This document shows, one piece after another, positions 41,600 to 42,651 of a stretch of 54,808 nt of DNA (position 1 is its first letter; each line of letters opens with the position of its first letter). Under the pieces are notes generated by a model. It made no database searches. It was not told where the DNA came from and saw nothing but the letters and a program-made list of their open reading frames with translations. Source of the DNA: Bacteroidales bacterium. Its GTDB lineage: Bacteria; Bacteroidota; Bacteroidia; Bacteroidales; UBA12170. The position numbers and the translations under genes are program-made. Where the stretch lies: positions 1 to 54,808 of the forward strand of contig JAGGWH010000121.1 of assembly GCA_021157585.1 (NCBI GenBank), written 5' to 3'.

Positions 41600-41613
41600 T
41601 TCACTTTTTTCGA

Positions 41614-41642
41614 TTGCAGTTTCAAGAAATCTATTACATTAG
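41614..41642 (+). promoter_or_regulatory. candidate promoter of the pheA leader transcript
   Basis: TTG (41614-41616), an 18-nt spacer and TACATTAG (41635-41642), which fits TAnnTTTG at seven of eight positions when the two free bases are included. Initiation near 41649 would start the RNA about 9 nt before the leader-peptide ATG. Confidence 0.45.
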
Positions 41643-41657
41643 CAAAAAAAATTACAA

Positions 41658-41711
41658 ATGTTTACGGTTACTAACTTTCGATTTTTATTTTGTTTTAAAA
41701 TTAAAGCCTGA
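41658..41711 (+). CDS. phenylalanine-rich leader peptide of pheA
   Basis: Seventeen codons, ATG to TGA at 41709-41711, giving MFTVTNFRFLFCFKIKA. Five residues are Phe (positions 2, 7, 9, 11, 13), all encoded by TTT. It sits between a candidate promoter and a terminator hairpin just before pheA, whose product feeds Phe synthesis. By analogy with the proteobacterial pheA leader (PheL), ribosome stalling at the Phe codons would sense charged tRNA-Phe. The reading is direct from sequence; expression is inferred. It is too short for usual gene finders. Confidence 0.75.
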   Translation: MFTVTNFRFLFCFKIKA

Positions 41712-41772
41712 GGACGAACCGTATTTTATCTATAAAAAAATATAAAGTCCTAAATAATTAGGGCTTTTTTTT
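41704..41772 (+). terminator. attenuator: terminator hairpin with competing antiterminator, upstream of pheA
   Basis: The terminator is AGTCCTAA (41746-41753), loop ATAA, TTAGGGCT (41758-41765), 8 bp with one G-U, followed by an uninterrupted T-run to 41772 that touches the first ATG. Two upstream segments compete: AAGCC (41704-41708) can pair with GGCTT (41762-41766), and AGGAC (41711-41715) with GTCCT (41747-41751), and the two pairings nest. A ribosome stalled on Phe codons leaves them free (readthrough), while one at the leader stop covers them (termination). Confidence 0.72.
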
Positions 41773-42651
41773 ATGCCTATGAATGAAAAAATTAGTGTAG
41801 CTATACAAGGAGTTAGTGGAGCATTTCACGAAATTGCAAGTCGCCAATATTTTAACAAACAGCAAGTCGAAATAATTCAGTGTTTGTCTTTCAATGATTT
41901 ATTTGATACTCTTCTTTTAGATGAAGCTGAGTATGGTGTTATTGCAATTGAAAACTCTGTTGTTGGAAGTATCATTCCCAATTATGCGCTTTTGCGAGAG
42001 TCTAAACTAAAAATACTTGGTGAAATATTTTTAAGAATAGAGCAACACCTAATAGTATCAAAAGGAGAAAAACTAGAGAATATTAAAGAAATATATTCAC
42101 ATCCGATGGCTCTTGAGCAATGTCTCAATTTTTTAAATCCACTACGTAGGTCAGGAGTTAGGATACTGGAAGCAGAAGATACAGCGTTAAGCGTTAAGCG
42201 TATTGCCGACAACAACTTAAAAGGGGTTGCTGCTATTGCCAGTGATTTGGCAGCAGAAATATATGGATTAGAAATTTTGCACAGAGGAATAGAAACAAAT
42301 AAAAAAAATTACACTCGTTTTTTGGTAATTTCTAATGAGAAAAACTATTTAAGGCATCAAGAAAACATTCAAAAAAATAAGGCCTCTCTTTGTTTTCGCC
42401 TGCCTCATGAAGAAGGAAGCTTATCGCAGGTTTTATCTGTGTTGACTTTTTATAAAATAAATCTTTCCAAAATACAATCGCTTCCTGTAGTCGGTGTAGA
42501 ATGGGAATATCTATTTTATATTGATCTGGTTTTTAGTAATTATGATAAGTATAAACAAGCTTTGACAGCTATTTTACCTTTAACAAAAAAGTTGACCATA
42601 TTGGGCGAATATCAAAAAGGAAAGCGCCCCAAAGAGAACACGATAAAATAG
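41773..42651 (+). CDS. pheA: prephenate dehydratase
   Basis: A 292-residue monofunctional prephenate dehydratase converting prephenate to phenylpyruvate in Phe synthesis. The catalytic domain has AIQGVSGAFHE, the region YGVIAIENSVVGSI, HPMALEQC and the Thr-Arg-Phe motif in NYTRFLVI. An ACT domain (about 205-280: LCFRLPHEEGSLSQVLSVL, then SLPVVGVEWEYLFYID with the variant of ESRP) binds Phe for feedback control. No chorismate mutase is fused. The first ATG abuts the attenuator T-run; ATG 41779 is equally possible. Control would be both allosteric and by attenuation. Confidence 0.93.
   Translation: MPMNEKISVAIQGVSGAFHEIASRQYFNKQQVEIIQCLSFNDLFDTLLLDEAEYGVIAIENSVVGSIIPNYALLRESKLKILGEIFLRIEQHLIVSKGEKLENIKEIYSHPMALEQCLNFLNPLRRSGVRILEAEDTALSVKRIADNNLKGVAAIASDLAAEIYGLEILHRGIETNKKNYTRFLVISNEKNYLRHQENIQKNKASLCFRLPHEEGSLSQVLSVLTFYKINLSKIQSLPVVGVEWEYLFYIDLVFSNYDKYKQALTAILPLTKKLTILGEYQKGKRPKENTIK

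Follow-up and report, generated by a model that had tools for sequence, protein, structure and literature searches.

A putative phenylalanine-specific attenuator upstream of pheA in a Bacteroidales genome and its relation to Phe/Tyr leaders in Bacteroidota

The pheA gene and its upstream region

The window, i.e., the whole stretch of 54,808 nucleotides analyzed here (contig JAGGWH010000121.1 of the Bacteroidales assembly GCA_021157585.1), contains on its forward strand the gene pheA (41779-42651), encoding prephenate dehydratase. The deduced protein of 290 residues matches PF00800 with 193.7 bits, above the cut-off, and is the sole PF00800 match found in the genome; its score with NCBIfam NF008865 (206.5 bits) is just below the curated cut-off of 219. 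No aromatic-pathway genes were found in the ~1.5 kb downstream of pheA. An alternative start lies upstream at 41773. As two relatives (G006 and G004) retain only the ATG corresponding to 41779, the latter appears to be the likelier start. A previous reading of the window, made from the sequence only, had a T run ending exactly at the pheA ATG; the run does adjoin an ATG, the one at 41773, and the likelier start is the second ATG, at 41779.

A candidate promoter of the Bacteroidota primary-sigma type is located at 41614-41642 on the same strand, with TTG at 41614-41616 (-33 type) and TACATTAG at 41635-41642 (-7 type). According to PMC7366714, the Bacteroidetes promoter consensus is TTTG/TAnnTTTG, and the phylum possesses no sigma-70 type promoter and makes no use of Shine-Dalgarno sequences. 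The candidate promoter of the sequence-only reading fits this consensus with one mismatch in each box. In the survey of relatives described below, an exact TAnnTTTG was found within 60 nt upstream of the first leader at 83 of 140 loci versus 3/140 mononucleotide shuffles, and at 129 of 140 versus 55/140 if one mismatch was allowed.

The promoter is followed by a putative leader peptide ORF on the forward strand, MFTVTNFRFLFCFKIKA (41658-41711; ATG at 41658-41660, stop codon TGA at 41709-41711). Direct reading of the sequence confirms the 17 codons with five Phe codons that had been claimed for it, including Phe at residues 7, 9, 11 and 13; the fifth Phe is residue 2, and there is no Tyr. The ORF is therefore rich in the amino acid of the downstream pathway (5 Phe in 17 codons), as expected for a leader-peptide attenuator. 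Nevertheless, ATG-initiated ORFs of 8-20 codons with at least five Phe arose in 39 of 5000 dinucleotide shuffles of 41600-41743 (~0.008), so that the leader of the window taken by itself is suggestive at most; the question of chance is settled by the comparative data across relatives. Among the 46 candidates for a hairpin with a T run on both strands of the window, four are preceded by a loosely aromatic ORF, and only the ORF at 41658 contains five Phe.

Between the leader and the gene, as required for an attenuator, lies an intrinsic terminator (41744-41772, forward strand). It comprises a 10-bp stem (41744-41753/41758-41767), with the hairpin sequence AAAGTCCTAA-ATAA-TTAGGGCTTT at 41744-41767, and a T run at 41765-41772 (eight T in the tail). 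The fold of this stretch has a z value of -3.1, and 1 of 200 shuffles was as good.

Predicted folds of the leader RNA

Two strands downstream of the Phe codons can pair with the terminator stem. The outer antiterminator strand (AAAGCCU, 41703-41709, forward strand) pairs with 41761-41767, and the inner one (AGGAC, 41711-41715, forward strand), which overlaps the leader stop codon, pairs with 41747-41751. The nested antiterminator had been proposed for 41704-41715; it is present, and is read here as 41703-41715 in the minimum-energy fold. If the ribosome is stalled at the Phe codons, the stretch left free (41697-41772) has this nested antiterminator as its predicted minimum-energy fold (-14.0 kcal/mol, z -2.1). 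If the ribosome is at the stop codon, the free stretch (41724-41772) is predicted to fold into the terminator (-10.2 kcal/mol); the ribosome edges used to choose both stretches are assumed positions. The geometry suggested earlier, in which stalling frees the antiterminator strand and a ribosome at the stop codon covers it, thus works in the predicted folds. An antiterminator that excludes the terminator, is exposed at the stall and is covered at the stop is indicated by these folds as well as by the family-wide pairing and spacing reported below.

The whole free leader RNA has a third predicted minimum-energy fold, consisting of the terminator and a possible early pause-type hairpin, P1. Its 5' strand (UACGGUU, 41663-41669, forward strand) lies within leader codons 2-4 and its 3' strand (AACCGUA, 41717-41723, forward strand) immediately after that of the antiterminator. 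The stability of the whole-leader fold does not reach significance (z -1.4), being matched by 21 of 200 shuffles. Together, the three predicted folds (antiterminator, terminator, P1 with terminator) are the states that the attenuation model requires.

The covarying stems that were to be looked for in orthologues were found in part. In six members of the genus, the terminator stem is paired in 60/60 cells, with two pairs changed on both sides, and its covariation score was reached by 9 of 500 shuffles; compensatory changes therefore exist for the terminator. For the antiterminator, there were no double-sided changes in this small genus set and no excess over shuffles, with 86% of cells paired overall (77.8% in the outer helix, which is incomplete in some members, and 96.6% in the inner one). 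P1 was paired in 54.5% of cells within the genus, without excess over shuffles.

Leaders upstream of pheA in related genomes

Loci of pheA were taken from a GTDB named set (the best 80 of 127 relatives) and from whole genomes at the genus, class and order levels, the class-level set being the best 29 of 215 matching genomes with that of the window excluded, and the order-level set consisting of 57 of 58 genomes with PheA plus seven genus members. The duplicate L001, two loci truncated at contig ends (L088, L097) and G368, which lacks upstream sequence, were left out before counting; L004 was included in the counts despite only 9 nt upstream. The resulting 173 loci contain five pairs with identical upstream sequence, leaving 168 distinct ones. 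The leader rule called for a hairpin of -7 kcal/mol or lower, a T run, and an ORF of 8-45 codons, of which four or more, and no fewer than 20%, were for Phe+Tyr. The leaders of G345 and G364 were detected under the final rule, after start codons and minimum aromatic content had been revised, and the mixed leader of G360 was recognized by eye.

An aromatic leader with a terminator was present in 147 of 173 pheA upstream regions (142/168 distinct, window included), and 31 of 173 (29/168 distinct) had two leaders. By set, these were 61/80 named loci (best 80 of 127), 29/29 class-level loci (best 29 of 215) and 57/64 order-level loci, where the window is counted. The same rule gave 6 hits in 513 shuffled regions and 3 in 171 opposite strands. 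Named carriers include Carboxylicivirga, Ancylomarina, Olivibacter, Parapedobacter, Desertivirga, Reichenbachiella and Saprospiraceae. Closer to the window, a Phe-dominant leader is found at the equivalent place in six of the seven genus genomes that have pheA apart from tyrA (window's genome included), so the search for a conserved Phe-rich short ORF that had been suggested as a check was positive.

At the scale of the family, there is evidence for the antiterminator as well. In 172 unique attenuators, the antiterminator pairing has a mean energy of -14.4 kcal/mol, versus -7.5 after shuffling of the strand and -9.3 if the strand is taken from another species, and the own strand outperforms the average of its 20 swaps in 161/172; i.e., the antiterminator strand varies in concert with the 5' arm of the terminator. 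Its start lies a median of 10 nt beyond the last control codon, and the stop codon falls within it (median start -12 and end +3 nt from the end of the stop codon); this spacing is what a stalled versus a finished ribosome needs. P1-like pairing surpassed the average of 20 swapped partners in 108/171 attenuators (p 3e-8); P1 is thus favored family-wide without confirmation inside the genus and is proposed tentatively. Judged by these comparisons, the putative attenuator of the window is a member of a widespread family of Phe/Tyr leaders.

Some loci do not follow this pattern. Of the named loci (best 80 of 127), 13 have pheA without aromatic neighbors and no detected attenuator, and in six further ones of the operon class no leader was detected, in one case for want of upstream sequence. 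No attenuator was detected at the pheA-alone loci of G005 and G385, and no leader was found before pheA in G356 and G324, where pheA and tyrA are on different contigs. G005 (L084) is a close relative that has no leader before pheA and has kept the tandem Tyr leaders on its tyrA operon. In Draconibacterium, Prolixibacter and Maribellus (L044, L046, L050, L059, L061, L062, L081), pheA stands alone with no attenuator detected, and this pattern suggests loss of the attenuator or another control.

Phe and Tyr codons of the leaders and the content of the operons

The Tyr share of the Phe+Tyr codons had a median of 0.07 for pheA standing alone, as in the window (12 leaders, six of them from the clade of the window), and was 0.43, i.e., mixed, for pheA in an operon with other Phe/Tyr genes (120 leaders) and 0.63, mostly Tyr-dominant, for tyrA operons without pheA (19 leaders), with the classes taken from draft contigs in which gene links may be hidden. 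A locus was assigned to the operon class by tblastn with three G001 proteins downstream of pheA, or by the presence of tyrA on the same contig and strand; G007, whose contig ends inside pheA, was assigned to the pheA-alone class on the basis of its clade. Leader sets that were identical entered the count a single time. The differences have p values of 7e-9 and 3e-7, or 5e-6 and 9e-5 with the clade of the window collapsed. For tyrA, 22 loci were scanned and three had no leader; the count of tyrA leaders leaves out ORFs lying far upstream in G324 (two) and G332 (one). Against the pattern are five rows of the operon class in which Tyr makes up <0.25 of the Phe+Tyr codons (among them L005 and G365, which are the same sequence), and the tyrA loci of G324 and G294, with more Phe than Tyr.

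On a PheA tree of 126 rows, built by a quick method without a mixture model, the operon state changes six times; the leader type, with Tyr shares divided at 0.25, does so ten times. The tree yields six independent pairs that differ in operon state. When the pairing was drawn at random 200 times, the leaders of all six pairs differed as predicted in most draws; in the remaining ones five did so and one showed no difference (sign test, median p 0.031, range to 0.0625).

In the genus of the window, nine genomes have both pheA and tyrA, and in seven of these the two genes lie on separate contigs. The separate operon of G001 codes for an aminotransferase, prephenate dehydrogenase and a DAHP synthase-chorismate mutase; within the reach of their contigs, the other six split genomes have their open frames in the same order. 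The tyrA operons of all seven carry two tandem leaders with more Tyr than Phe codons in 14/14. The genome of the window (G000) itself possesses on contig C161 (L169:696-944) the tandem Tyr-dominant leaders MKIYAYRYFFYWFIRP and MIRSSFYYFWNYYYLFY, each followed by a terminator, before its aminotransferase-tyrA genes. The residual Phe codons of such Tyr leaders would be expected, since the enzymes of the operon serve both amino acids. In two further members of the genus, G003 and G009, the operon is linked and its leaders are mixed. Their PheA (L102, L103) is only 46-48% identical to that of the window and the linked operon bears two mixed leaders; it is possibly a replaced operon.

No pheA was found in G296 and G023, which carry before their tyrA loci a leader with no Phe and six Tyr codons (F0Y6) and leaders F1Y5 and F2Y8, respectively. 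A leader by the rule is present in 43/45 order-level genomes with tyrA linked to pheA. In G297, tyrA is located elsewhere, yet the leader is mixed; this fits the codon rule, because the genes for the aminotransferase and DAHP synthase still follow pheA. Tandem leaders occur in 27/120 operon leader sets (e.g., L006, L010, L024, L103, L107) and in 0/12 pheA-alone sets. This codon specificity, as read from the compared sequences, is the strongest evidence for attenuation.

Proposed mechanism and alternative explanations

What computation shows are the parts of the attenuator, which exclude one another and are conserved, and the specificity of the codons among relatives; on these grounds the element of the window is very probably a Phe-specific ribosome-mediated transcription attenuator of pheA. 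The complete phenylalanine attenuator proposed before pheA is well supported: every element named is present, and the predicted folds are mutually exclusive. Such an attenuator would tune pheA to the supply of charged Phe-tRNA. We infer that RNA polymerase starts near 41648; a ribosome would begin the leader at 41658 almost immediately. With scarce Phe-tRNA, the ribosome would presumably stall at the Phe codons of residues 7-13, which end at 41696. The stall would free 41703-41715 for pairing with 41747-41751 and 41761-41767, the terminator would be undone, and transcription would enter pheA. With plentiful Phe-tRNA, the ribosome would reach the stop codon (41709-41711) and cover 41703-41715; the terminator hairpin (41744-41767) could then form and transcription would stop at the T run. 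Without a ribosome, the predicted fold with P1 and the terminator should also be an off state. The response to Phe itself is an expectation of this model.

Three other explanations have to be considered. The hairpin could be a plain terminator or a constitutive intergenic damper, with the short ORF a chance product of AT-rich sequence. The rate of five-Phe ORFs in the shuffled window sequence (39/5000) and the non-significant fold of the whole leader would agree with this explanation; against it, an aromatic leader with terminator is found at 147/173 loci versus 6/513 shuffles, and the fact that Phe versus Tyr content of the leaders tracks operon content speaks strongly against it, which makes it extremely improbable. 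To the same very low degree we would credit control of the terminator by a riboswitch, a T-box or an RNA-binding protein, with the short ORF being secondary. A terminator and an antiterminator would suit any such sensor. However, no Rfam family reached its threshold in the window (lax matches at 41600-41800 were all sub-threshold), the one Rfam match in 20 relatives (Acido-Lenti-1 in L083) lies outside the leader, the short distance from the candidate promoter to the leader leaves little space for an aptamer, and the feature that varies with function is codon content.

Alternatively, the target of the leader peptide could be translation instead of termination, through coupling to pheA or reinitiation there. 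Leader-to-gene reinitiation has been proposed for many bacteria including Bacteroidetes (PMC4833913), and the pheA start is close behind the terminator. Still, the leader stop is separated from the likely start of pheA by 67 nt that include a T-tailed hairpin, whereas PMC4833913 sets the reinitiation effect at short distances, in Bacteroidetes 11-14 bp; moreover, the antiterminator strands vary in concert with the terminator. We therefore regard action on translation as highly improbable, albeit a shade less so than the other two, and Phe-specific transcription attenuation as the preferred explanation.

Extended to the phylum, the comparisons make it probable that Bacteroidota run Phe and Tyr synthesis via codon-tunable attenuators, in which selection matches the Phe:Tyr ratio of the leader to the products of the operon. 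The leaders would have been re-tuned repeatedly when pheA was split from the aminotransferase-tyrA-DAHP synthase genes, and they would include Tyr-sensing ribosome-mediated attenuators as well as two in series as a two-gate control, all in a phylum without classical Shine-Dalgarno sites. This indicates that in Bacteroidota, a phylum with its own promoters and no classical Shine-Dalgarno signals, genes for aromatic amino acids are commonly under the control of the textbook attenuator. The split operons may be seen as a natural experiment, in which the control codons were split too and the specificity of attenuation becomes testable from sequence alone. Furthermore, the family offers candidate Tyr-sensing and tandem attenuators for bench work and a supply of possible amino-acid-responsive switches for Bacteroidota.

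Comparison with known systems

Two Rfam families were considered as the identity of the element and rejected. RF01859 (Phe_leader) scored 20.2 bits at 41713-41773 against a threshold of 55; in six genomes, it had no match over the cut-off and three sub-threshold ones (two in G000, on contigs other than that of the window, and one in G103). RF01692 (Bacteroid-trp), which we take to be a leader-peptide attenuator, had no match at threshold in the window and none at E 0.001 in the genome. In the same genome (95.5% complete), no match was found for HisG (PF01634) or the N-domain of anthranilate synthase (PF04715), so His and Trp auxotrophy, or missing contigs, are likely. The Acido-Lenti-1 match (L083:1063-1117 in G001, 39.7 bits versus a threshold of 37) ends 384 nt upstream of pheA.

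The sequence-only reading knew of no description of leader-peptide attenuation of pheA in this phylum; related precedents do exist. A 2004 survey of amino-acid attenuators reportedly names some predicted ones in Bacteroidetes/Chlorobi, which would count against novelty for the phylum. Clues to leader-peptide attenuation before amino-acid operons were described for Flavobacterium psychrophilum, together with a conserved structured 5' element upstream of pheA that is also present in other Flavobacteriaceae genera (PMC9723704). This precedent concerns the same phylum and the same gene as the attenuator of the window; section 19 of that account gives no leader sequence, Phe/Tyr specificity or antiterminator, and does not explicitly present the pheA element as a leader-peptide case. 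Bacteroid-trp is listed as a cis-regulatory RNA for Bacteroidetes in table 1 of PMC2864571; it is by name a trp-gene element, and the element of the window is unmatched by it at threshold. Short ORFs reminiscent of leader peptides are mentioned for B. thetaiotaomicron in PMC7366714. PMC2965389 (2010) states that, the ermC leader aside, no leader-peptide system was known beyond Proteobacteria and Actinobacteria before its own Firmicutes case.

In the literature searched, which included few subscription journals and neither the 2004 survey nor a second comparative attenuator survey of 2010, we found neither Tyr-dominant nor tandem aromatic attenuators described for Bacteroidota. Within the same coverage, a Phe/Tyr code tracking operon content was likewise not described.

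The pheL-pheA system of E. coli (RF01859) likewise attenuates pheA by means of a leader peptide, in response to charged tRNA-Phe (PMC11802643). In E. coli, the product of pheA is a fusion of chorismate mutase and prephenate dehydratase (same source), whereas PheA of the window is a prephenate dehydratase of 290 residues. The element of the window also differs in scoring below the RF01859 threshold and in belonging to a phylum without sigma-70 type promoters (PMC7366714, as above). The closest mixed aromatic leader found is that of aroR in Corynebacterium glutamicum, with Phe-Tyr-Phe before the DAHP synthase (aroF) operon (PMC11802643). It belongs to a different phylum and reportedly responds to Phe and not to Tyr (Neshat 2014, as cited in PMC11802643), and no Tyr-dominant or tandem form is mentioned in that passage. 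Attenuation of such genes was thus already known, and the more interesting result is the family whose leaders appear to be tuned to Phe and Tyr.
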